Assembly (NCBI GenBank): GCA_921293015.1
Contig: OV121092.1
Location: forward strand, 37,207,764 to 37,271,763
Source: Phorcus lineatus
Lineage: Eukaryota; Mollusca; Gastropoda; Trochida; Trochidae
Reading direction: 5' to 3'
Length of the DNA: 64,000 nucleotides
The position numbers were made by a program, and so were the translations under genes. Shown here piece after piece: positions 833 through 21,800 of the stretch. The notes beneath the pieces are model-generated. The model ran no database searches. It saw only the letters and a program-made list of their open reading frames with translations, and was not told the DNA's origin. Position 1 is the first letter of the stretch. Each line of letters starts with the position of its first letter.

Positions 833-2080
833 TTCTAAACCAAACTTTCATCAAATGTACACCACATTGTGTTCTATCGATTGAGCAATACCAATTTCAT
901 GTCCGATTCTTGGTTTGGGCTCCAGATTCGAGCTTAAACAGGTACAGATAGCTGATTTTGACCAAATTCGCGGGAAAAGACTGAGTCCAATATATGCATA
1001 TTGTTGTAGCGAGCGCGATAACTTTCTTAAAAATGCATACTTCTAAACCAAACTTTCATCAAATGTACATCACATTGTGTTCTATCGATTGAGCAATACC
1101 AATTTCCTGTCCGAGTCTTGGTTTGGGCTCAAGATTCGAGCTTAAACAGGTACAGATAGCTGATTTTGAACAAATTCGCGGAAAAAGACTGAGTCCAATA
1201 TATGCATATTGTTGTAGCGAGCACGATAACTTTCTTAAAAATGCATATTTCTAAACCAAACTTTCATCAAATGTACACCACATTGTGTTCTATCGATTGA
1301 GCAATAGCAATTTCATGTCGTATTATTGGTTTGGCCTCCAGATTCGAGCTTAAACAGGTACAGATAGCTGATTTTGACCAAATTCGCGGAAAAAGACTGA
1401 GTCCAATATATGCATATTGTTGTAGCGAGCACGATAACTTTCTTAAAAATGCATATTTCTAAACCAAACTTTCATCAAATGTACACCACATTGTGTTCTA
1501 TCAATTGAGCAATACCAATTTCCTGTCCGATTCTTGGTTTGGCCTCCAGATTCGAGCTTAAACAGGTACAGATAGCTGATTTTGACCAAATTCGCGGAAA
1601 AAGACTGAGTCCAATATATGCATATTGTTGTAGCGAGCGTGATAACTTTCTTAAAAATGCATATTTCTAAACCAAACTTTCATCAAATGTACATCACATT
1701 GTGTTCTAACAATTGAGCAATACCAATTTCCTGTCCGATTCTTGGTTTGGCCTCCAGATTCGAGCTTAAACAGGTACAGATAGCTGATTTTGACCAAATT
1801 CACGGGAAAAGTCTGAGTCCAATATATGCATATTGTTGTAGCGAGCACGATAACTTTCTTAAAAATGCATATTTCTAAACCAAACTTTCATCAAATGTAC
1901 ATCACATTGTGTTCTATCGATTGAGCAATACCAATTTCCTGTCCGGTTCTTGGTTTGGCCTCAAGTTTCGAGCTTAAACAGGTACAGATAGCTGATTTTG
2001 ACCAAATTCGCGGAAAAAGACTGAGTCCAATATATGCATATTGTTGTAGCGAGCGCGATAACTTTCTTAAAAATGCATAT

Positions 2081-4576
2081 TTCTAAACCAAACTTTCATC
2101 AAATGTACATCACATTGTGTTCTATCGATTGAGCAATAGCAATTTCCTGTCCGGTTCTTGGTTTGGCCTCAAGTTTCGAGCTTAAACAGGTACAGATAGC
2201 TGATTTTGACCAAATTCGCGGAAAAAGACTGAGTCCAATATATGCATATTGTTGTAGCGAGCGTGATAACTTTCTTAAAAATGCATATTTCTAAACCAAA
2301 CTTTCATCAAATGTACATCACATTGTGTTCTAACAATTGAGCAATACCAATTTCCTGTCCGATTCTTGGTTTGGCCTCCAGATTCGAGCTTAAACAGGTA
2401 CAGATAGCTGATTTTGACCAAATTCGCGGAAAAAGACTGAGTCCAATATATGCATATTGTTGTAGCGAGCGCGATAACTTTCTTAAAAATGCATATTTCT
2501 AAACCAAACTTTCATCAAATGTACATCACATTGTGTTCTATCGATTGAGCAAGACCAATTTCCTGTCCGGTTCTTGGTTTGGCCTCAAGTTTCGAGCTTA
2601 AACAGGTACAGATAGCTGATTTTGACCAAATTCGCGGAAAAAGACTGAGTCCAATATATGCATATTGTTGTAGCGAGCGCGATAACTTTCTTAAAAATGC
2701 ATATTTCTAAACCAAACTTTCATCAAATGTACATCACATTGTGTTCTATCGATTGAGCAATAGCAATTTCCTGTCCGATTCTTGGTTTGGGCTCCAGATT
2801 CGAGCTTAAACAGGTACAGATAGCTGATTTTGACCAAATTCGCGGAAAAAGACTGAGTCCAATATATGCATATTGTTGTAGCGAGCGCGATAACTTTCTT
2901 AAAAATGCATATTTCTAAACCAAACTTTCATCAAATGTACATCACATTGTGTTCTATCAATTTAGCAATACCAATTTCCTGTCCGATTCTTGGTTTGGCC
3001 TCCAGATTCGAGCTTAAACAGGTACAGATAGCTGATTTTGACCAAATTCGCGGAAAAAGACTGAGTCCAATATATGCATATTGTTGTAGCGAGCGTGATA
3101 ACTTTCTTAAAAATGCATATTTCTAAACCAAACTTTCATCAAATGTACATCACATTGTGTTCTAACAATTGAGCAATACCAATTTCCTGTCCGATTCTTG
3201 GTTTGGCCTCCAGATTCGAGCTTAAACAGGTACAGATAGCTGATTTTGAACAAATTCACGGGAAAAGTCTGAGTCCAATATATGCATATTGTTGTAGCGA
3301 GCACGATAACTTTCTTAAAAATGCATATTTCTAAACCAAACTTTCATCAAATGTACATCACATTGTGTTCTATCGATTGAGCAATAGCAATTTCCTGTCC
3401 GGTTCTTGGTTTGGCCTCAAGTTTCGAGCTTAAACAGGTACAGATAGCTGATTTTGACCAAATTCGCGGAAAAAGACTGAGTCCAATATATGCATATTGT
3501 TGTAGCGAGCGTGATAACTTTCTTAAAAATGCATATTTCTAAACCAAACTTTCATCAAATGTACATCACATTGTGTTCTAACAATTGAGCAATACCAATT
3601 TCCTGTCCGATTCTTGGTTTGGCCTCCAGATTCGAGCTTAAACAGGTACAGATAGCTGATTTTGACCAAATTCGCGGAAAAAGACTGAGTCCAATATATG
3701 CATATTGTTGTAGCGAGCGCGATAACTTTCTTAAAAATGCATATTTCTAAACCAAACTTTCATCAAATGTACATCACATTGTGTTCTATCGATTGAGCAA
3801 GAACAATTTCCTGTCCGGTTCTTGGTTTGGCCTCAAGTTTCGAGCTTAAACAGGTACAGATAGCTGATTTTGACCAAATTCGCGGAAAAAGACTGAGTCC
3901 AATATATGCATATTGTTGTAGCGAGCGCGATAACTTTCTTAAAAATGCATATTTCTAAACCAAACTTTCATCAAATGTACATCACATTGTGTTCTATCGA
4001 TTGAGCAATAGCAATTTCCTGTCCGATTCTTGGTTTGGGCTCCAGATTCGAGCTTAAACAGGTACAGATAGCTGATTTTGACCAAATTCGCGGAAAAAGA
4101 CTGAGTCCAATATATGCATATTGTTGTAGCGAGCGCGATAACTTTCTTAAAAATGCATATTTCTAAACCAAACTTTCATCAAATGTACATCACATTGTGT
4201 TCTATCAATTTAGCAATACCAATTTCCTGTCCGATTCTTGGTTTGGCCTCCAGATTCGAGCTTAAACAGGTACAGATAGCTGATTTTGACCAAATTCGCG
4301 GAAAAAGACTGAGTCCAATATATGCATATTGTTGTAGCGAGCGTGATAACTTTCTTAAAAATGCATATTTCTAAACCAAACTTTCATCAAATGTACATCA
4401 CATTGTGTTCTAACAATTGAGCAATACCAATTTCCTGTCCGATTCTTGGTTTGGCCTCCAGATTCGAGCTTAAACAGGTACAGATAGCTGATTTTGAACA
4501 AATTCACGGGAAAAGTCTGAGTCCAATATATGCATATTGTTGTAGCGAGCACGATAACTTTCTTAAAAATGCATAT
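2081..4576. repeat. 6-monomer module duplicated in tandem (2 x 1,248 bp)
   Basis: Monomers 2,081-3,328 and 3,329-4,576 repeat the same six-type order: CCGGTTC/AAGTTTC ending GCGTG; AACAATTG; GAGCAAGACC; ATAGC with GGGCTCC; CAATTTAGCA ending GCGTG; AACAATTG with CACGGGAAAAGTC. The same module recurs singly at 11,857 and in tandem at 19,761-22,256. A shortened 4-monomer form lies at 13,105-13,936. It appears to be the building block of domain 1 and accounts for most of its copy-number variation. Confidence 0.85.
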
Positions 4577-7500
4577 TTCTAAACCAAACTTTCATCAAAT
4601 GTACATCACATTGTGTTCTATCGATTGAGCAATAGCAATTTCCTGTCCGGTTCTTGGTTTGGCCTCAAGTTTCGAGCTTAAACAGGTACAGATAGCTGAT
4701 TTTGACCAAATTCGCGGAAAAAGACTGAGTCCAATATATGCATATTGTTGTAGCGAGCGCGATAACTTTCTTAAAAATGCATATTTCTAAACCAAACTTT
4801 CATCAAATGTACATCACATTGTGTTCTATCGATTGAGCAAGACCAATTTCCTGTCCGGTTCTTGGTTTGGCCTCAAGTTTCGAGCTTAAACAGGTACAGA
4901 TAGCTGATTTTGACCAAATTCGCGGAAAAAGACTGAGTCCAATATATGCATATTGTTGTAGCGAGCGCGATAACTTTCTTAAAAATGCATATTTCTAAAC
5001 CAAACTTTCATCAAATGTACATCACATTGTGTTCTATCGATTGAGCAATACCAATTTCCTGTCCGAGTCTTGGTTTGGGCTCAAGATTCGAGCTTAAACA
5101 GGTACAGATAGCTGATTTTGAACAAATTCGCGGAAAAAGACTGAGTCCAATATATGCATATTGTTGTAGCGAGCGCGATAACTTTCTTAAAAATGCATAT
5201 TTCTAAACCAAACTTTCATCAAATGTACATCACATTGTGTTCTATCGATTGAGCAATAGCAATTTCCTGTCCGATTCTTGGTTTGGGCTCAAGATTCGAG
5301 CTTAAACAGGTACAGATAGCTGATTTTGACCAAATTCGCGGAAAAAGACTGAGTCCAATATATGCATATTGTTGTAGCGAGCGCGATAACTTTCTTAAAA
5401 ATGCATATTTCTAAACCAAACTTTCATCAAATGTACATCACATTGTGTTCTATCAATTTAGCAATACCAATTTCCTGTCCGATTCTTGGTTTGGCCTCCA
5501 GATTCGAGCTTAAACAGGTACAGATAGCTGATTTTGACCAAATTCGCGGAAAAAGACTGAGTCCAATATATGCATATTGTTGTAGCGAGCGTGATAACTT
5601 TCTTAAAAATGCATATTTCTAAACCAAACTTTCATCAAATGTACATCACATTGTGTTCTAACAATTGAGCAATACCAATTTCCTGTCCGATTCTTGGTTT
5701 GGCCTCCAGATTCGAGCTTAAACAGGTACAGATAGCTGATTTTGAACAAATTCACGGGAAAAGTCTGAGTCCAATATATGCATATTGTTGTAGCGAGCAC
5801 GATAACTTTCTTAAAAATGCATATTTCTAAACCAAACTTTCATCAAATGTACATCACATTGTGTTCTATCGATTGAGCAATAGCAATTTCCTGTCCGGTT
5901 CTTGGTTTGGCCTCAAGTTTCGAGCTTAAACAGGTACAGATAGCTGATTTTGACCAAATTCGCGGAAAAAGACTGAGTCCAATATATGCATATTGTTGTA
6001 GCGAGCGCGATAACTTTCTTAAAAATGCATATTTCTAAACCAAACTTTCATCAAATGTACATCACATTGTGTTCTATCGATTGAGCAAGACCAATTTCCT
6101 GTCCGGTTCTTGGTTTGGCCTCAAGTTTCGAGCTTAAACAGGTACAGATAGCTGATTTTGACCAAATTCGCGGAAAAAGACTGAGTCCAATATATGCATA
6201 TTGTTGTAGCGAGCGCGATAACTTTCTTAAAAATGCATATTTCTAAACCAAACTTTCATCAAATGTACATCACATTGTGTTCTATCGATTGAGCAATAGC
6301 AATTTCCTGTCCGGTTCTTGGTTTGGCCTCAAGTTTCGAGCTTAAACAGGTACAGATAGCTGATTTTGACCAAATTCGCGGAAAAAGACTGAGTCCAATA
6401 TATGCATATTGTTGTAGCGAGCGTGATAACTTTCTTAAAAATGCATATTTCTAAACCAAACTTTCATCAAATGTACATCACATTGTGTTCTAACAATTGA
6501 GCAATACCAATTTCCTGTCCGATTCTTGGTTTGGCCTCCAGATTCGAGCTTAAACAGGTACAGATAGCTGATTTTGACCAAATTCGCGGAAAAAGACTGA
6601 GTCCAATATATGCATATTGTTGTAGCGAGCGCGATAACTTTCTTAAAAATGCATATTTCTAAACCAAACTTTCATCAAATGTACATCACATTGTGTTCTA
6701 TCGATTGAGCAAGACCAATTTCCTGTCCGGTTCTTGGTTTGGCCTCAAGTTTCGAGCTTAAACAGGTACAGATAGCTGATTTTGACCAAATTCGCGGAAA
6801 AAGACTGAGTCCAATATATGCATATTGTTGTAGCGAGCGCGATAACTTTCTTAAAAATGCATATTTCTAAACCAAACTTTCATCAAATGTACATCACATT
6901 GTGTTCTATCGATTGAGCAATAGCAAATTCCTGTCCGATTCTTGGTTTGGGCTCCAGATTCGAGCTTAAACAGGTACAGATAGCTGATTTTGACCAAATT
7001 CGCGGAAAAAGACTGAGTCCAATATATGCATATTGTTGTAGCGAGCGCGATAACTTTCTTAAAAATGCATATTTCTAAACCAAACTTTCATCAAATGTAC
7101 ATCACATTGTGTTCTATCGATTGAGCAATACCAATTTCCTGTCCGATTCTTGGTTTGGCCTCCAGATTCGAGCTTAAACAGGTACAGATAGCTGATTTTG
7201 AACAAATTCGCGGAAAAAGACTGAGTCCAATATATGCATATTGTTGTAGCGAGCGCGATAACTTTCTTAAAAATGCATATTTCTAAACCAAACATTCATC
7301 AAATGTACACCACATTGTGTTCTATCGATTGAGCAACAGCAATTTCCTGTCCGATTCTTGGTTTGGGCTCCAGATTCGAGCTTAAACAGGTACAGATAGC
7401 TGATTTTGACCAAATTCGCGGGAAAAGACTGAGTCCAATATATGCATATTGTTGTAGCGAGCGCGATAACTTTCTTAAAAATGCATATTTCTAAACCAAA

Positions 7501-8112
7501 CTTTCATCAAATGTACATCACATTGTGTTCTATCAATTGAGCAATACCAATTTCCTGTCCGATTCTTGGTTTGGCCTCCAGATTCGAGCTTAAACAGGTA
7601 CAGATAGCTGATTTTGACCAAATTCGCGGAAAAAGACTGAGTCCAATATATGCATATTGTTGTAGCGAGCGTGATAACTTTCTTAAAAATGCATATTTCT
7701 AAACCAAACTTTCATCAAATGTACATCCCATTGTGTTCTAACAATTGAGCAATACCAATTTCCTGTCCGATTCTTGGTTTGGCCTCCAGAGTCGAGCTTA
7801 AACAGGTACAGATAGCTGATTTTGAACAAATTCGCGGAAAAAGTCTGAGTCCAATATATGCATATTGTTGTAGCGAGCACGATAACTTTCTTAAAAATGC
7901 ATATTTCTAAACCAAACTTTCATCAAATGTACATCACATTGTGTTCTATCGATTGAGCAAGACCAATTTCCTGTCCGGTTCTTGGTTTGGCCTCAAGTTT
8001 CGAGCTTAAACAGGTACAGATAGCTGATTTTGACCAAATTCGCGGAAAAAGACTGAGTCCAATATATGCATATTGTTGTAGCGAGCGCGATAACTTTCTT
8101 AAAAATGCATAT

Positions 8113-8528
8113 TTCTAAACCAAACTTTCATCAAATGTACATCACATTGTGTTCTATCGATTGAGCAATACCAATTTCCTGTCTGATTCTTGGTTTGGCC
8201 TCCAGATTCGAGCTTAAACAGGTACAGATAGCTGATTTTGAACAAATTCGCGGAAAAAGACTGAGTCCAATATATGCATATTGTTGTAGCGAGCGCGATA
8301 ACTTTCTTAAAAATGCATATTTCTAAACCAAACTTTCATCAAATGTACATCACATTGTGTTCTATCGATTGAGCAATACCAATTTCCTGTCTGATTCTTG
8401 GTTTGGCCTCCAGATTCGAGCTTAAACAGGTACAGATAGCTGATTTTGAACAAATTCGCGGAAAAAGACTGAGTCCAATATATGCATATTGTTGTAGCGA
8501 GCACGATAACTTTCTTAAAAATGCATAT
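8113..8528. repeat. Adjacent twin monomers carrying CTGATTC
   Basis: Two neighbouring monomers share CTGATTC in place of CCGATTC and GAACAAATTC. They differ only near the end (GCGCGAT against GCACGAT). The pair is conserved in all three domain 1 copies (also 15,809-16,224 and 24,337-24,752), so the single-monomer duplication predates the spread of the HOR. Confidence 0.85.
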
Positions 8529-10400
8529 TTCTAAACCAAACTTTCATCAAATGTACACCACATTGTGTTCTATCGATTGAGCAATACCAATTTCATGTCC
8601 GATTCTTGGTTTGGGCTCCAGATTCGAGCTTAAACAGGTACATATAGCTGATTTTGACCAAATTTGCGAAAAAAGACTGAGTCCAATATATGCATATTGT
8701 TGTAGCGAGCACGATAACTTTCTTAAAAATGCATATTTCTAAACCAAACTTTCATCAAATGTACATCACATTGTGTTCTATCGATTGAGCAATACCAATT
8801 TCCTGTCCGAGTCTTGGTTTGGGCTCAAGATTCGAGCTTAAACAGGTACAGATAGCTGATTTTGAACAAATTCGCGGAAAAAGACTGAGTCCAATATATG
8901 CATATTGTTGTAGCGAGCACGATAACTTTCTTAAAAATGCATATTTCTAAACCAAACTTTCATCAAATGTACACCACATTGTGTTCTATCGATTGAGCAA
9001 TACCAATTTCATGTCCTATTATTGGTTTGGGCTCAAGATTCGAGCTTAAACAGGTACAGATAGCTGATTTTGACCAAATTCGCGGAAAAAGACTGAGTCC
9101 AATATATGCATATTGTTGTAGCGAGCACGATAACTTTCTTAAAAATGCATATTTCTAAACCAAACTTTCATCAAATGTACACCACATTGTGTTCTATCGA
9201 TTGAGCAATAGCAATTTCATGTCCGATTCTTGGTTTGGGCTCCAGATTCGAGCTTAAACAGGTACAGATAGCTGATTTTGACCAAATTCGCGGGAAAAGA
9301 CTGAGTCCAATATATGCATATTGTTGTAGCGAGCGCGATAACTTTCTTAAAAATGCATATTTCTAAACCAAACATTCATCAAATGTACACCACATTGTGT
9401 TCTATCGATTGAGCAACAGCAATTTCCTGTCCGATTCTTGGTTTGGCCTCCAGATTCGAGCTTAAACAGGTACAGATAGCTGATTTTGACCAAATTCGCG
9501 GAAAAAGACTGAGTCCAATATATGCATATTGTTGTAGCGAGCGCGATAACTTTCTTAAAAATGCATATTTCTAAACCAAACTTTCATCAAATGTACACCA
9601 CATTGTGTTCTATCGATTGAGCAATACCAATTTCATGTCCGATTCTTGGTTTGGGCTCCAGATTCGAGCTTAAACAGGTACAGATAGCTGATTTTGACCA
9701 AATTCGCGGGAAAAGACTGAGTCCAAGATATGCATATTGTTGTAGCGAGCGCGATAACTTTCTTAAAAATGCATATTTCTAAACCAAACTTTCATCAAAT
9801 GTACATCACATTGTGTTCTATCGATTGAGCAAGACCAATTTCCTGTCCGGTTCTTGGTTTGGCCTCAAGTTTCGAGCTTAAACAGGTACATATAGCTGAT
9901 TTTGAACAAATTTGCGAAAAAAGACTGAGTCCAATATATGCATATTGTTGTAGCGAGCGCGATAACTTTCTTAAAAATGCATATTTCTAAACCAAACATT
10001 CATCAAATGTACACCACATTGTGTTCTATCGATTGAGCAACAGCAATTTCCTGTCCGATTCTTGGTTTGGCCTCCAGATTCGAGCTTAAACAGGTACAGA
10101 TAGCTGATTTTGACCAAATTCGCGGAAAAAGACTGAGTCCAATATATGCATATTGTTGTAGCGAGCACGATAACTTTCTTAAAAATGCATATTTCTAAAC
10201 CAAACTTTCATCAAATGTACATCACATTGTGTTCTATCGATTGAGCAAGACCAATTTCCTGTCCGGTTCTTGGTTTGGCCTCAAGTTTCGAGCTTAAACA
10301 GGTACAGATAGCTGATTTTGACCAAATTCGCGGAAAAAGACTGAGTCCAATATATGCATATTGTTGTAGCGAGCGCGATAACTTTCTTAAAAATGCATAT

Positions 10401-10608
10401 TTCTAAACCAAACTTTCATCAAATGTACATCACATTGTGTTCTATCGATTGAGCAATACCAATTTCCTGTCCGATTCTTGGTTTGGCCTCCAGATTCGAG
10501 CTTAAACAGGTACAGATAGCTGATTTTGAACAAATTCGCGGAAAAAGACTGAGTCCAATATATGCATATTGTTGTAGCGAGCACGATAACTTTCTTAAAA
10601 ATGCATAT
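10401..10608 (+). repeat. Representative 208-bp monomer and its internal anatomy
   Basis: This copy is close to the consensus. In monomer coordinates it holds an ATCGAT palindrome at 45-50, a pyrimidine-rich TTTCCTGTCC at 63-72, TTCGAGCTTAA at 96-106, TTCGCGG at 136-142 and a five-A run after it. A perfect 10-bp palindrome ATATGCATAT lies at 160-169. The GCGAGCGCGATAAC segment spans about 177-190 and TTCTTAAAAATGCATAT ends the unit. The 9-base word ATGCATATT occurs twice, starting 39 bp apart. CpG is not depleted: about eight per monomer, near the number expected from base composition. I see no promoter, polymerase III box or known protein site that I can support. Confidence 0.9.
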
Positions 10609-13600
10609 TTCTAAACCAAACTTTCATCAAATGTACACCACATTGTGTTCTATCGATTGAGCAATACCAATTTCATGTCCGATTCTTGGTTTGGGCTCCA
10701 GATTCGAGCTTAAACAGGTACAGATAGCTGATTTTGACCAAATTCGCGGGAAAAGACTGAGTCCAATATATGCATATTGTTGTAGCGAGCGCGATAACTT
10801 TCTTAAAAATGCATACTTCTAAACCAAACTTTCATCAAATGTACATCACATTGTGTTCTATCGATTGAGCAATACCAATTTCCTGTCCGAGTCTTGGTTT
10901 GGGCTCAAGATTCGAGCTTAAACAGGTACAGATAGCTGATTTTGAACAAATTCGCGGAAAAAGACTGAGTCCAATATATGCATATTGTTGTAGCGAGCAC
11001 GATAACTTTCTTAAAAATGCATATTTCTAAACCAAACTTTCATCAAATGTACACCACATTGTGTTCTATCGATTGAGCAATAGCAATTTCATGTCCTATT
11101 ATTGGTTTGGCCTCCAGATTCGAGCTTAAACAGGTACAGATAGCTGATTTTGACCAAATTCGCGGAAAAAGACTGAGTCCAATATATGCATATTGTTGTA
11201 GCGAGCACGATAACTTTCTTAAAAATGCATATTTCTAAACCAAACTTTCATCAAATGTACACCACATTGTGTTCTATCAATTGAGCAATACCAATTTCCT
11301 GTCCGATTCTTGGTTTGGCCTCCAGATTCGAGCTTAAACAGGTACAGATAGCTGATTTTGACCAAATTCGCGGAAAAAGACTGAGTCCAATATATGCATA
11401 TTGTTGTAGCGAGCGTGATAACTTTCTTAAAAATGCATATTTCTAAACCAAACTTTCATCAAATGTACATCACATTGTGTTCTAACAATTGAGCAATACC
11501 AATTTCCTGTCCGATTCTTGGTTTGGCCTCCAGATTCGAGCTTAAACAGGTACAGATAGCTGATTTTGACCAAATTCACGGGAAAAGTCTGAGTCCAATA
11601 TATGCATATTGTTGTAGCGAGCACGATAACTTTCTTAAAAATGCATATTTCTAAACCAAACTTTCATCAAATGTACATCACATTGTGTTCTATCGATTGA
11701 GCAATACCAATTTCCTGTCCGGTTCTTGGTTTGGCCTCAAGTTTCGAGCTTAAACAGGTACAGATAGCTGATTTTGACCAAATTCGCGGAAAAAGACTGA
11801 GTCCAATATATGCATATTGTTGTAGCGAGCGCGATAACTTTCTTAAAAATGCATATTTCTAAACCAAACTTTCATCAAATGTACATCACATTGTGTTCTA
11901 TCGATTGAGCAATAGCAATTTCCTGTCCGGTTCTTGGTTTGGCCTCAAGTTTCGAGCTTAAACAGGTACAGATAGCTGATTTTGACCAAATTCGCGGAAA
12001 AAGACTGAGTCCAATATATGCATATTGTTGTAGCGAGCGTGATAACTTTCTTAAAAATGCATATTTCTAAACCAAACTTTCATCAAATGTACATCACATT
12101 GTGTTCTAACAATTGAGCAATACCAATTTCCTGTCCGATTCTTGGTTTGGCCTCCAGATTCGAGCTTAAACAGGTACAGATAGCTGATTTTGACCAAATT
12201 CGCGGAAAAAGACTGAGTCCAATATATGCATATTGTTGTAGCGAGCGCGATAACTTTCTTAAAAATGCATATTTCTAAACCAAACTTTCATCAAATGTAC
12301 ATCACATTGTGTTCTATCGATTGAGCAAGACCAATTTCCTGTCCGGTTCTTGGTTTGGCCTCAAGTTTCGAGCTTAAACAGGTACAGATAGCTGATTTTG
12401 ACCAAATTCGCGGAAAAAGACTGAGTCCAATATATGCATATTGTTGTAGCGAGCGCGATAACTTTCTTAAAAATGCATATTTCTAAACCAAACTTTCATC
12501 AAATGTACATCACATTGTGTTCTATCGATTGAGCAATAGCAATTTCCTGTCCGATTCTTGGTTTGGGCTCCAGATTCGAGCTTAAACAGGTACAGATAGC
12601 TGATTTTGACCAAATTCGCGGAAAAAGACTGAGTCCAATATATGCATATTGTTGTAGCGAGCGCGATAACTTTCTTAAAAATGCATATTTCTAAACCAAA
12701 CTTTCATCAAATGTACATCACATTGTGTTCTATCAATTTAGCAATACCAATTTCCTGTCCGATTCTTGGTTTGGCCTCCAGATTCGAGCTTAAACAGGTA
12801 CAGATAGCTGATTTTGACCAAATTCGCGGAAAAAGACTGAGTCCAATATATGCATATTGTTGTAGCGAGCGTGATAACTTTCTTAAAAATGCATATTTCT
12901 AAACCAAACTTTCATCAAATGTACATCACATTGTGTTCTAACAATTGAGCAATACCAATTTCCTGTCCGATTCTTGGTTTGGCCTCCAGATTCGAGCTTA
13001 AACAGGTACAGATAGCTGATTTTGAACAAATTCACGGGAAAAGTCTGAGTCCAATATATGCATATTGTTGTAGCGAGCACGATAACTTTCTTAAAAATGC
13101 ATATTTCTAAACCAAACTTTCATCAAATGTACATCACATTGTGTTCTATCGATTGAGCAATAGCAATTTCCTGTCCGGTTCTTGGTTTGGCCTCAAGTTT
13201 CGAGCTTAAACAGGTACAGATAGCTGATTTTGACCAAATTCGCGGAAAAAGACTGAGTCCAATATATGCATATTGTTGTAGCGAGCGTGATAACTTTCTT
13301 AAAAATGCATATTTCTAAACCAAACTTTCATCAAATGTACATCACATTGTGTTCTAACAATTGAGCAATACCAATTTCCTGTCCGATTCTTGGTTTGGCC
13401 TCCAGATTCGAGCTTAAACAGGTACAGATAGCTGATTTTGACCAAATTCGCGGAAAAAGACTGAGTCCAATATATGCATATTGTTGTAGCGAGCGCGATA
13501 ACTTTCTTAAAAATGCATATTTCTAAACCAAACTTTCATCAAATGTACATCACATTGTGTTCTATCAATTTAGCAATACCAATTTCCTGTCCGATTCTTG

Positions 13601-16600
13601 GTTTGGCCTCCAGATTCGAGCTTAAACAGGTACAGATAGCTGATTTTGACCAAATTCGCGGAAAAAGACTGAGTCCAATATATGCATATTGTTGTAGCGA
13701 GCGTGATAACTTTCTTAAAAATGCATATTTCTAAACCAAACTTTCATCAAATGTACATCACATTGTGTTCTAACAATTGAGCAATACCAATTTCCTGTCC
13801 GATTCTTGGTTTGGCCTCCAGATTCGAGCTTAAACAGGTACAGATAGCTGATTTTGAACAAATTCACGGGAAAAGTCTGAGTCCAATATATGCATATTGT
13901 TGTAGCGAGCACGATAACTTTCTTAAAAATGCATATTTCTAAACCAAACTTTCATCAAATGTACATCACATTGTGTTCTATCGATTGAGCAATAGCAATT
14001 TCCTGTCCGGTTCTTGGTTTGGCCTCAAGTTTCGAGCTTAAACAGGTACAGATAGCTGATTTTGACCAAATTCGCGGAAAAAGACTGAGTCCAATATATG
14101 CATATTGTTGTAGCGAGCGCGATAACTTTCTTAAAAATGCATATTTCTAAACCAAACTTTCATCAAATGTACATCACATTGTGTTCTATCGATTGAGCAA
14201 GACCAATTTCCTGTCCGGTTCTTGGTTTGGCCTCAAGTTTCGAGCTTAAACAGGTACAGATAGCTGATTTTGACCAAATTCGCGGAAAAAGACTGAGTCC
14301 AATATATGCATATTGTTGTAGCGAGCGCGATAACTTTCTTAAAAATGCATATTTCTAAACCAAACTTTCATCAAATGTACATCACATTGTGTTCTATCGA
14401 TTGAGCAATACCAATTTCCTGTCCGGTTCTTGGTTTGGCCTCAAGTTTCGAGCTTAAACAGGTACAGATAGCTGATTTTGACCAAATTCGCGGAAAAAGA
14501 CTGAGTCCAATATATGCATATTGTTGTAGCGAGCGTGATAACTTTCTTAAAAATGCATATTTCTAAACCAAACTTTCATCAAATGTACATCACATTGTGT
14601 TCTAACAATTGAGCAATACCAATTTCCTGTCCGATTCTTGGTTTGGCCTCCAGATTCGAGCTTAAACAGGTACAGATAGCTGATTTTGACCAAATTCGCG
14701 GAAAAAGACTGAGTCCAATATATGCATATTGTTGTAGCGAGCGCGATAACTTTCTTAAAAATGCATATTTCTAAACCAAACTTTCATCAAATGTACATCA
14801 CATTGTGTTCTATCGATTGAGCAAGACCAATTTCCTGTCCGGTTCTTGGTTTGGCCTCAAGTTTCGAGCTTAAACAGGTACAGATAGCTGATTTTGACCA
14901 AATTCGCGGAAAAAGACTGAGTCCAATATATGCATATTGTTGTAGCGAGCGCGATAACTTTCTTAAAAATGCATATTTCTAAACCAAACATTCATCAAAT
15001 GTACACCACATTGTGTTCTATCGATTGAGCAACAGCAATTTCCTGTCCGATTCTTGGTTTGGGCTCCAGATTCGAGCTTAAACAGGTACAGATAGCTGAT
15101 TTTGACCAAATTCGCGGGAAAAGACTGAGTCCAATATATGCATATTGTTGTAGCGAGCGCGATAACTTTCTTAAAAATGCATATTTCTAAACCAAACTTT
15201 CATCAAATGTACATCACATTGTGTTCTATCAATTGAGCAATACCAATTTCCTGTCCGATTCTTGGTTTGGCCTCCAGATTCGAGCTTAAACAGGTACAGA
15301 TAGCTGATTTTGACCAAATTCGCGGAAAAAGACTGAGTCCAATATATGCATATTGTTGTAGCGAGCGTGATAACTTTCTTAAAAATGCATATTTCTAAAC
15401 CAAACTTTCATCAAATGTACATCCCATTGTGTTCTAACAATTGAGCAATACCAATTTCCTGTCCGATTCTTGGTTTGGCCTCCAGAGTCGAGCTTAAACA
15501 GGTACAGATAGCTGATTTTGAACAAATTCGCGGAAAAAGTCTGAGTCCAATATATGCATATTGTTGTAGCGAGCACGATAACTTTCTTAAAAATGCATAT
15601 TTCTAAACCAAACTTTCATCAAATGTACATCACATTGTGTTCTATCGATTGAGCAAGACCAATTTCCTGTCCGGTTCTTGGTTTGGCCTCAAGTTTCGAG
15701 CTTAAACAGGTACAGATAGCTGATTTTGACCAAATTCGCGGAAAAAGACTGAGTCCAATATATGCATATTGTTGTAGCGAGCGCGATAACTTTCTTAAAA
15801 ATGCATATTTCTAAACCAAACTTTCATCAAATGTACATCACATTGTGTTCTATCGATTGAGCAATACCAATTTCCTGTCTGATTCTTGGTTTGGCCTCCA
15901 GATTCGAGCTTAAACAGGTACAGATAGCTGATTTTGAACAAATTCGCGGAAAAAGACTGAGTCCAATATATGCATATTGTTGTAGCGAGCGCGATAACTT
16001 TCTTAAAAATGCATATTTCTAAACCAAACTTTCATCAAATGTACATCACATTGTGTTCTATCGATTGAGCAATACCAATTTCCTGTCTGATTCTTGGTTT
16101 GGCCTCCAGATTCGAGCTTAAACAGGTACAGATAGCTGATTTTGAACAAATTCGCGGAAAAAGACTGAGTCCAATATATGCATATTGTTGTAGCGAGCAC
16201 GATAACTTTCTTAAAAATGCATATTTCTAAACCAAACTTTCATCAAATGTACACCACATTGTGTTCTATCGATTGAGCAATACCAATTTCATGTCCGATT
16301 CTTGGTTTGGGCTCCAGATTCGAGCTTAAACAGGTACATATAGCTGATTTTGACCAAATTTGCGAAAAAAGACTGAGTCCAATATATGCATATTGTTGTA
16401 GCGAGCACGATAACTTTCTTAAAAATGCATATTTCTAAACCAAACTTTCATCAAATGTACATCACATTGTGTTCTATCGATTGAGCAATACCAATTTCCT
16501 GTCCGAGTCTTGGTTTGGGCTCAAGATTCGAGCTTAAACAGGTACAGATAGCTGATTTTGAACAAATTCGCGGAAAAAGACTGAGTCCAATATATGCATA

Positions 16601-18302
16601 TTGTTGTAGCGAGCACGATAACTTTCTTAAAAATGCATATTTCTAAACCAAACTTTCATCAAATGTACACCACATTGTGTTCTATCGATTGAGCAATACC
16701 AATTTCATGTCCTATTATTGGTTTGGGCTCAAGATTCGAGCTTAAACAGGTACAGATAGCTGATTTTGACCAAATTCGCGGAAAAAGACTGAGTCCAATA
16801 TATGCATATTGTTGTAGCGAGCACGATAACTTTCTTAAAAATGCATATTTCTAAACCAAACTTTCATCAAATGTACACCACATTGTGTTCTATCGATTGA
16901 GCAATAGCAATTTCATGTCCGATTCTTGGTTTGGGCTCCAGATTCGAGCTTAAACAGGTACAGATAGCTGATTTTGACCAAATTCGCGGGAAAAGACTGA
17001 GTCCAATATATGCATATTGTTGTAGCGAGCGCGATAACTTTCTTAAAAATGCATATTTCTAAACCAAACATTCATCAAATGTACACCACATTGTGTTCTA
17101 TCGATTGAGCAACAGCAATTTCCTGTCCGATTCTTGGTTTGGCCTCCAGATTCGAGCTTAAACAGGTACAGATAGCTGATTTTGACCAAATTCGCGGAAA
17201 AAGACTGAGTCCAATATATGCATATTGTTGTAGCGAGCGCGATAACTTTCTTAAAAATGCATATTTCTAAACCAAACTTTCATCAAATGTACACCACATT
17301 GTGTTCTATCGATTGAGCAATACCAATTTCATGTCCGATTCTTGGTTTGGGCTCCAGATTCGAGCTTAAACAGGTACAGATAGCTGATTTTGACCAAATT
17401 CGCGGGAAAAGACTGAGTCCAAGATATGCATATTGTTGTAGCGAGCGCGATAACTTTCTTAAAAATGCATATTTCTAAACCAAACTTTCATCAAATGTAC
17501 ATCACATTGTGTTCTATCGATTGAGCAAGACCAATTTCCTGTCCGGTTCTTGGTTTGGCCTCAAGTTTCGAGCTTAAACAGGTACATATAGCTGATTTTG
17601 AACAAATTTGCGAAAAAAGACTGAGTCCAATATATGCATATTGTTGTAGCGAGCGCGATAACTTTCTTAAAAATGCATATTTCTAAACCAAACATTCATC
17701 AAATGTACACCACATTGTGTTCTATCGATTGAGCAACAGCAATTTCCTGTCCGATTCTTGGTTTGGCCTCCAGATTCGAGCTTAAACAGGTACAGATAGC
17801 TGATTTTGACCAAATTCGCGGAAAAAGACTGAGTCCAATATATGCATATTGTTGTAGCGAGCACGATAACTTTCTTAAAAATGCATATTTCTAAACCAAA
17901 CTTTCATCAAATGTACATCACATTGTGTTCTATCGATTGAGCAAGACCAATTTCCTGTCCGGTTCTTGTTTGGCCTCAAGTTTCGAGCTTAAACAGGTAC
18001 AGATAGCTGATTTTGACCAATTCGCGGAAAAAGACTGAGTCCAATATATGCATATTGTTGTAGCGAGCGCGATAACTTTCTTAAAAATGCATATTTCTAA
18101 ACCAAACTTTCATCAAATGTACATCACATTGTGTTCTATCGATTGAGCAATACCAATTTCCTGTCCGATTCTTGGTTTGGGCCTCCAGATTCGAGCTTAA
18201 ACAGGTACAGATAGCTGATTTTGAACAAATTCGCGGAAAAGACTGAGTCCAATATATGCATATTGTTGTAGCGAGCACGATAACTTTCTTAAAAATGCAT
18301 AT
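10609..18302. repeat. Domain 1 HOR copy 2: 37 monomers
   Basis: Same order of monomer types as copy 1, offset by 47 monomers at the left end and 37 at the right end. Whole monomers equivalent to 3,745-4,160, a 6-monomer block within 4,577-6,032, and 6,865-7,280 are absent. Over the shared left part (10,609-13,104 against 833-3,328) I see only one substitution, at about 1,320 in copy 1 (GTCGTATTA against GTCCTATTA). The two copies are therefore very young or strongly homogenised. The right end runs into the indel patch, so this copy is 2 bp shorter than 37 x 208. Confidence 0.85.
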
Positions 18303-18885
18303 TTCTAAACCAAACTTTCATCAAATGTACACCACATTGTGTTCTATCGATTGAGCAATACCAATTTCATGTCCGATTCTTGGTTTGGGCTCAGATTCGA
18401 GCTTAAACAGGTACAGATAGCTGATTTTGACCAAATTCGCGGGAAAAGACTGAGTCCAATATATGCATATTGTTGTAGCGAGCGCGATAACTTTCTTAAA
18501 AATGCATACTTCTAAACCAAACTTTCATCAAATGTACATCACATTGTGTTCTATCGATTGAGCAATACCAATTTCCTGTCCGAGTCTTGGTTTGGGCTCA
18601 AGATTCGAGCTTAAACAGGTACAGATAGCTGATTTTGAACAAATTCGCGGAAAAAGACTGAGTCCAATATATGCATATTGTTGTAGCGAGCACGATAACT
18701 TTCTTAAAAATGCATATTTCTAAACCAAACTTTCATCAAATGTACACCACATTGTGTTCTATCGATTGAGCAATAGCAATTTCATGTCCTATTATTGGTT
18801 TGGCCTCCAGATTCGAGCTTAAACAGGTACAGATAGCTGATTTTGACCAAATTCGCGGAAAAAGACTGAGTCCAATATTATATGC
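17960..18885. other. Only indel-bearing patch in the array; probable assembly or consensus error
   Basis: Six length changes fall within about 910 bp. They are loss of one G near 17,968, one A near 18,020, gain of one G near 18,180, loss of one A near 18,240, loss of one C near 18,392 and gain of three bases near 18,878. They sum to zero, so phase is restored exactly at 18,929. Five of the six lie in short homopolymer runs. The homologous stretch at 10,193-11,232 has none of them and otherwise reads the same. No other monomer in the window departs from 208 bp. This is the signature of noisy-read consensus or a weakly supported join rather than of biology. Confidence 0.8.
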
Positions 18886-21800
18886 ATATTGTTGTAGCGA
18901 GCACGATAACTTTCTTAAAAATGCATATTTCTAAACCAAACTTTCATCAAATGTACACCACATTGTGTTCTATCAATTGAGCAATACCAATTTCCTGTCC
19001 GATTCTTGGTTTGGCCTCCAGATTCGAGCTTAAACAGGTACAGATAGCTGATTTTGACCAAATTCGCGGAAAAAGACTGAGTCCAATATATGCATATTGT
19101 TGTAGCGAGCGTGATAACTTTCTTAAAAATGCATATTTCTAAACCAAACTTTCATCAAATGTACATCACATTGTGTTCTAACAATTGAGCAATACCAATT
19201 TCCTGTCCGATTCTTGGTTTGGCCTCCAGATTCGAGCTTAAACAGGTACAGATAGCTGATTTTGACCAAATTCACGGGAAAAGTCTGAGTCCAATATATG
19301 CATATTGTTGTAGCGAGCACGATAACTTTCTTAAAAATGCATATTTCTAAACCAAACTTTCATCAAATGTACATCACATTGTGTTCTATCGATTGAGCAA
19401 TACCAATTTCCTGTCCGGTTCTTGGTTTGGCCTCAAGTTTCGAGCTTAAACAGGTACAGATAGCTGATTTTGACCAAATTCGCGGAAAAAGACTGAGTCC
19501 AATATATGCATATTGTTGTAGCGAGCGCGATAACTTTCTTAAAAATGCATATTTCTAAACCAAACTTTCATCAAATGTACATCACATTGTGTTCTATCGA
19601 TTGAGCAATAGCAATTTCCTGTCCGGTTCTTGGTTTGGCCTCAAGTTTCGAGCTTAAACAGGTACAGATAGCTGATTTTGACCAAATTCGCGGAAAAAGA
19701 CTGAGTCCAATATATGCATATTGTTGTAGCGAGCGTGATAACTTTCTTAAAAATGCATATTTCTAAACCAAACTTTCATCAAATGTACATCACATTGTGT
19801 TCTAACAATTGAGCAATACCAATTTCCTGTCCGATTCTTGGTTTGGCCTCCAGATTCGAGCTTAAACAGGTACAGATAGCTGATTTTGACCAAATTCGCG
19901 GAAAAAGACTGAGTCCAATATATGCATATTGTTGTAGCGAGCGCGATAACTTTCTTAAAAATGCATATTTCTAAACCAAACTTTCATCAAATGTACATCA
20001 CATTGTGTTCTATCGATTGAGCAAGACCAATTTCCTGTCCGGTTCTTGGTTTGGCCTCAAGTTTCGAGCTTAAACAGGTACAGATAGCTGATTTTGACCA
20101 AATTCGCGGAAAAAGACTGAGTCCAATATATGCATATTGTTGTAGCGAGCGCGATAACTTTCTTAAAAATGCATATTTCTAAACCAAACTTTCATCAAAT
20201 GTACATCACATTGTGTTCTATCGATTGAGCAATAGCAATTTCCTGTCCGATTCTTGGTTTGGGCTCCAGATTCGAGCTTAAACAGGTACAGATAGCTGAT
20301 TTTGACCAAATTCGCGGAAAAAGACTGAGTCCAATATATGCATATTGTTGTAGCGAGCGCGATAACTTTCTTAAAAATGCATATTTCTAAACCAAACTTT
20401 CATCAAATGTACATCACATTGTGTTCTATCAATTTAGCAATACCAATTTCCTGTCCGATTCTTGGTTTGGCCTCCAGATTCGAGCTTAAACAGGTACAGA
20501 TAGCTGATTTTGACCAAATTCGCGGAAAAAGACTGAGTCCAATATATGCATATTGTTGTAGCGAGCGTGATAACTTTCTTAAAAATGCATATTTCTAAAC
20601 CAAACTTTCATCAAATGTACATCACATTGTGTTCTAACAATTGAGCAATACCAATTTCCTGTCCGATTCTTGGTTTGGCCTCCAGATTCGAGCTTAAACA
20701 GGTACAGATAGCTGATTTTGAACAAATTCACGGGAAAAGTCTGAGTCCAATATATGCATATTGTTGTAGCGAGCACGATAACTTTCTTAAAAATGCATAT
20801 TTCTAAACCAAACTTTCATCAAATGTACATCACATTGTGTTCTATCGATTGAGCAATAGCAATTTCCTGTCCGGTTCTTGGTTTGGCCTCAAGTTTCGAG
20901 CTTAAACAGGTACAGATAGCTGATTTTGACCAAATTCGCGGAAAAAGACTGAGTCCAATATATGCATATTGTTGTAGCGAGCGTGATAACTTTCTTAAAA
21001 ATGCATATTTCTAAACCAAACTTTCATCAAATGTACATCACATTGTGTTCTAACAATTGAGCAATACCAATTTCCTGTCCGATTCTTGGTTTGGCCTCCA
21101 GATTCGAGCTTAAACAGGTACAGATAGCTGATTTTGACCAAATTCGCGGAAAAAGACTGAGTCCAATATATGCATATTGTTGTAGCGAGCGCGATAACTT
21201 TCTTAAAAATGCATATTTCTAAACCAAACTTTCATCAAATGTACATCACATTGTGTTCTATCGATTGAGCAAGACCAATTTCCTGTCCGGTTCTTGGTTT
21301 GGCCTCAAGTTTCGAGCTTAAACAGGTACAGATAGCTGATTTTGACCAAATTCGCGGAAAAAGACTGAGTCCAATATATGCATATTGTTGTAGCGAGCGC
21401 GATAACTTTCTTAAAAATGCATATTTCTAAACCAAACTTTCATCAAATGTACATCACATTGTGTTCTATCGATTGAGCAATAGCAATTTCCTGTCCGATT
21501 CTTGGTTTGGGCTCCAGATTCGAGCTTAAACAGGTACAGATAGCTGATTTTGACCAAATTCGCGGAAAAAGACTGAGTCCAATATATGCATATTGTTGTA
21601 GCGAGCGCGATAACTTTCTTAAAAATGCATATTTCTAAACCAAACTTTCATCAAATGTACATCACATTGTGTTCTATCAATTTAGCAATACCAATTTCCT
21701 GTCCGATTCTTGGTTTGGCCTCCAGATTCGAGCTTAAACAGGTACAGATAGCTGATTTTGACCAAATTCGCGGAAAAAGACTGAGTCCAATATATGCATA

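Follow-up and report, generated by a model that had tools for sequence, protein, structure and literature searches.

The closest described counterparts of the locus reported here are errors in HiFi-based assemblies. According to the sections of the T2T-CHM13 paper that deal with assembly errors (PMC9186530), HiFi errors are mostly small indels in homopolymer runs or simple repeats, the error of the reads is given as 0.1%, and potential errors are over-represented where HiFi coverage is low. For the HG002 assemblies, the part of PMC9668749 concerned with discordant indels assigns 80% of them to small indels located in either homopolymers or tandem repeats of 51-200 bp, and attributes infrequent errors to collapsed haplotypes and/or noise in HiFi reads. 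The patch of length changes described below resembles the T2T-CHM13 consensus errors, as characterized in those sections of PMC9186530, in consisting of small indels in homopolymers or simple repeats, here within satellite DNA; whereas the T2T-CHM13 errors are enriched at low HiFi coverage, our patch is known from the letters of the assembly alone, and the sequencing platform may differ. As for the satellite, it has a 208-bp unit with higher-order structure and falls under the unnamed animal satellite families. Terms derived from its sequence returned no matching paper within the literature collection searched, and a single fish paper, known by its listing and with sequences not compared with the Phorcus array, turns up for the combination of 208-bp, satellite and centromere.

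The window (the whole stretch of DNA that was analysed, 64,000 bp of Phorcus lineatus) corresponds to positions 37,207,764-37,271,763 of contig C19 in a genome assembly of 958 Mb and 74 contigs. It is a single satellite array, reported by Tandem Repeats Finder as one row with period 208, 307.7 copies and 96% matches:

1 to 64,000, plus strand: 208-bp satellite array (Tandem Repeats Finder)

The units are arranged head-to-tail and differ from the consensus at a mean of ~4.7 positions (unit-to-consensus alignment), with nested recent duplications that are mostly multiples of 208 bp. An Rfam search of positions 17,000-20,000 gave 0 matches.

The array extends beyond the 304 kb that we examined, and length variation of several kinds is found in the satellite family. 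Across the whole genome there are 345 matches to shorter and 867 to longer off-length monomers. Relatives of the satellite were seen, among the matches listed, on contigs C11, C12 and C13 and in a separate part of C19 (7.65-7.97 Mb), and on C11 spacings of 207 and 209 bp are repeated many times among these matches. At C19:37,042,265-37,056,654 truncated units of 158 bp with an identical 50-bp deletion occur several times over, indicating that a shortened unit has been amplified inside the array, and at C19:37,075,399-37,088,494 ten units lack the same single base at position 122 of the unit, a length variant that duplication has apparently propagated. Near C19:37,298,400-37,303,560 the array is broken by ~5.2 kb of non-satellite DNA, which encodes an open frame of 822 amino acids on the minus strand (L032:7400-9868) with a match to the OTU cysteine protease family barely above the Pfam cut-off (23.6 versus 23.3 bits) and has short, repeated palindromes near its ends; to judge from these features, it looks like a transposon insertion. 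Elsewhere in the assembly, C74 is the mitochondrial contig. Its cox1 match reads through with genetic codes 4, 5 and 9 but is interrupted with code 2, so that the host is probably an invertebrate; no RuBisCO match was obtained, which by itself does not decide the matter. We assume that table 5 applies, and the frames beside cox1 are presumably those of nd2 and cox2, their order resembling that of molluscs.

Near-identical copies inside the window allow the patch to be compared with its own relatives. Exact-match chaining delimits a block that holds the patch and a twin lying 37 units upstream, and a further copy covers the right part of the block:

7,203 to 13,566, plus strand: twin, homologous copy with regular 208-bp units (offset 7,696 bp, equal to 37 units)
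14,899 to 21,262, plus strand: block holding the patch (exact-match chaining with the twin)
1,321 to 3,790, plus strand: additional copy matching the right-hand portion of the block, TAT absent (exact 2,470-bp match to 11,097-13,566)
17,967 to 18,878, plus strand: indel patch, six length changes and no substitution against the twin (alignment to twin and consensus)

Over 6,364 bp the block differs from its twin by 0 substitutions and six indels, the patch being framed by perfectly matching sequence, 3,070 bp long on its left side (7,203 with 14,899) and 2,384 bp long on its right side (11,183 with 18,879), and this is the longest substitution-free pair in the 304 kb examined. The claim of the original prediction that the stretch 10,193-11,232 shows no substitutions against the patch region was reproduced by the alignment, in which the six indels are the sole differences. 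They are private to one copy, and near-identical paralogues lack them. The edges of the block are abrupt, with 5 differences at 7,129-7,202 and 6 at 13,567-13,614 in the coordinates of the twin. Since the flanks thus diverge at both ends, the two copies do not represent a false end-to-end duplication or the overlapping ends of one locus.

Indels were called with five anchor words, after which each anchor-to-anchor unit was aligned to the window consensus. The six changes are, in order, -1, -1, +1, -1, -1 and +3, with a net length of 0, exactly as had been predicted, and their placement inside a run is arbitrary:

17,967 to 17,968, plus strand: -1, GG to G, G lost after 17,967 (alignment to twin)
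18,018 to 18,019, plus strand: -1, AAA to AA, A lost after 18,018 (alignment to twin)
18,179 to 18,179, plus strand: +1, GG to GGG, G gained at 18,179 (alignment to twin)
18,236 to 18,237, plus strand: -1, AAAAA to AAAA, A lost after 18,236 (alignment to twin and consensus)
18,391 to 18,392, plus strand: -1, CC to C, C lost after 18,391 (alignment to twin)
18,876 to 18,878, plus strand: +3, TAT inserted adjoining TATATA (alignment to twin)

In the unit phase of the original prediction, three monomers (206, 207 and 211 bp) are off-length rather than the four first proposed, the number depending on where units are cut, because in the fourth, 18,095-18,302, the +1 and a -1 cancel to leave a unit of 208 bp. 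Outside the patch, neither anchor spacing nor unit alignment detected a further indel in the window.

Five of the six changes were found in the same or a close form elsewhere in the family, in less related units. The loss of G, searched genome-wide with up to one mismatch, gave 14 matches, namely the patch, five others and eight places (C9 twice, C10, C11, C12, C19:37,511,736, C32 and C60) that share the shortened TTGTTTGG followed by GCTC, as against CCTC in the patch; this deletion therefore recurs in the satellite family. The change of AAA to AA (as a 24-base word) has one further place in the genome, at C19:36,478,020, that of GG to GGG (28-base word) has one on C11, and that of CC to C (26-base word) has two, on C4 and at C19:37,528,546. 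At the five-A site the aligner also put a one-A loss at C19:37,040,230 and C19:37,069,803 in a 264-kb census, the former being on another reading a lost G in the GGG that precedes the A run. Only the TAT insertion stands by itself: its exact 28-base word occurs at 1 place genome-wide, and the close paralogues at positions 1,407 and 11,183 both lack the insertion. The recurrence of five changes indicates that these sites can slip naturally, which counts against an error.

The census of 264 kb comprised 36 gap rows, 6 in the patch and 30 outside it, so that the statement that all indels of the array sit in the patch stands for the window but not for the array. Of the 30 outside rows, 23 lie within C19:37,007,764-37,090,000, and most of these 23 are amplified length variants. 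The background rate was taken from 37,090,000-37,271,763 only, leaving out that region, and rests on 7 rows that represent 6 independent single-base events, one of which is present in two units. At this rate 0.03 events are expected per 911 bp, and the probability of six or more is ~1e-12; within the 6,364-bp block alone, a span of at most 911 bp has a probability of ~3e-4. The indel cluster is thus far beyond chance. The exact cancelling of lengths, which had been read as meaningful, was rejected as a clue: the net length is indeed zero, but with random signs this has a probability of ~0.16 and is uninformative. The indels share unit positions 79-158 of 208 (P 0.05).

A smaller cluster is present at C19:37,040,227-37,040,688 (L012:2464-2925), where a -1 and a +1, each in a homopolymer, are accompanied by two substitutions, private to the middle copy among three near-identical ones. 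With its mixed spectrum it is less error-like and may be real.

That real satellite decay would bring substitutions along with indels is borne out by the array's own recent changes. In the window plus 240 kb of neighbouring array (together 304 kb), exact matches were linked into chains that define block pairs; 120 chains reached 1,500 bp or more, and the 50 with ≤0.3% substitutions were kept. The 48 control pairs without contact to the patch comprise 126,267 aligned bases, with 146 substitutions and 5 gaps, counts that are partly dependent as block pairs overlap, four of the five gaps being one event pair seen twice. The two pairs touching the patch show 2 substitutions and 7 gaps in 10,492 bases, 6 of these gaps coming from the twin pair. 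By Fisher's test, 0:6 departs from 146:5 with P ~2.4e-8 and from 146:3 with P ~4.8e-9. With this spectrum the patch is not ordinary decay, and the lack of substitutions is the strong argument of the original prediction.

The prediction that five of the six indels lie in short homopolymers was likewise confirmed, as five are silent under homopolymer compression, after which the 6,364-bp blocks are identical save for the 3-bp site. The chance that all five single-base changes (4 deletions, 1 insertion) would be compression-silent under uniform placement is ~0.02, a modest enrichment. HiFi errors are expected to favour long runs. One single-base event falls in a 5-base run, of which there are eight in the homologous stretch, and the other four in runs of 2 or 3. 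Six changes per 911 bp amount to 0.66% per base, exceeding the 0.1% HiFi figure that the error sections of PMC9186530 give, so that, if the patch is an error, the reads were unusually poor there or came from another platform.

We consider it very probable that the patch is a consensus error, that is, a locally weak consensus rather than biology. A locally poor consensus, which the original prediction had named, fits best with the cluster, the absence of the changes from near-identical copies, the error-like spectrum and the comparison with the 304-kb control, all of them direct observations, from which we infer the read-level cause, the platform and a dip in coverage. About 0.9 kb of the assembly would have been drawn from a single long read, or a few, with poor accuracy in this interval, and length errors typical of such reads would have survived at homopolymers and at a short stretch of TA, the true sequence at the patch probably consisting of regular 208-bp units as in the twin. 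Because the loss of G recurs, our confidence in an error was lowered by the slightest step, and that in gene conversion raised by as little.

The second cause that had been proposed, a join between contigs, is unlikely. Here two contigs or graph paths would have been stitched at the patch, and the number or order of the 37-unit copies would also be wrong. The patch does lie inside the longest substitution-free pair of the 304 kb, where the choice of path is ambiguous, and one bridging read would produce such errors; a join and a consensus error overlap in that a join may itself bring poor consensus. No positive sign of a join was detected, however: aligned to the twin, the patch keeps the order and register of the monomers and has a net length of zero, and with their abruptly diverging flanks the two copies do not represent one locus whose ends overlap. 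Furthermore, HiFi reads of 20 kb, the length mentioned in the consulted sections of PMC9186530, would exceed the identical block of 6.4 kb, although the platform used here may differ. The uncertainty in the copy number of the higher-order repeats that had been deduced from the patch does not follow from it; a wrong jump or swap between the two identical 6.4-kb copies is possible, would leave no trace and would be invisible in sequence.

Less probable again is a real germ-line shower of indels, in which an error-prone repair or replication tract of ~0.9 kb (about 1 kb) would have undergone frameshift-type slips with no substitutions. It would account for a tract that is confined, private and recent, for the +3, which is a direct duplication of TAT, and for the five of six sites at which an identical or closely similar change exists elsewhere in the family. 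It would require six slips and not one substitution, against recent changes in the array that run 146 to 5 the opposite way. The phrase 'clustered indels' was not found among the literature matches listed, which does not prove its absence from print.

We regard an artefact of short-read polishing, with reads stemming from other monomers, as very improbable. Polishing mis-maps in repeats, which speaks for it, but substitutions towards other monomers would then be expected, and zero are seen. Least probable of all is an origin by exchange with, or gene conversion from, satellite copies bearing these length variants. Some of the variants do exist elsewhere (C19:36,478,020, C11, C4, C19:37,528,546 and the eight places with the shortened G run), but such an origin would need several donors within 0.9 kb, none of them carrying over a substitution despite ~4.7 differences per unit from the consensus, and the assembly offers no second copy of the 28-base TAT word.

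A probable consensus error at this site has consequences for how such arrays are read. Near-identical paralogous satellite blocks provide an internal yardstick for the quality control of assemblies, and where copies differ by indels alone within one short patch, the base sequence is to be flagged. Positions 17,960-18,885 should be masked in work on this array that dates duplications or calls length variants. If reads bore out the indels, the patch would represent a mutational tract of an unusual kind.
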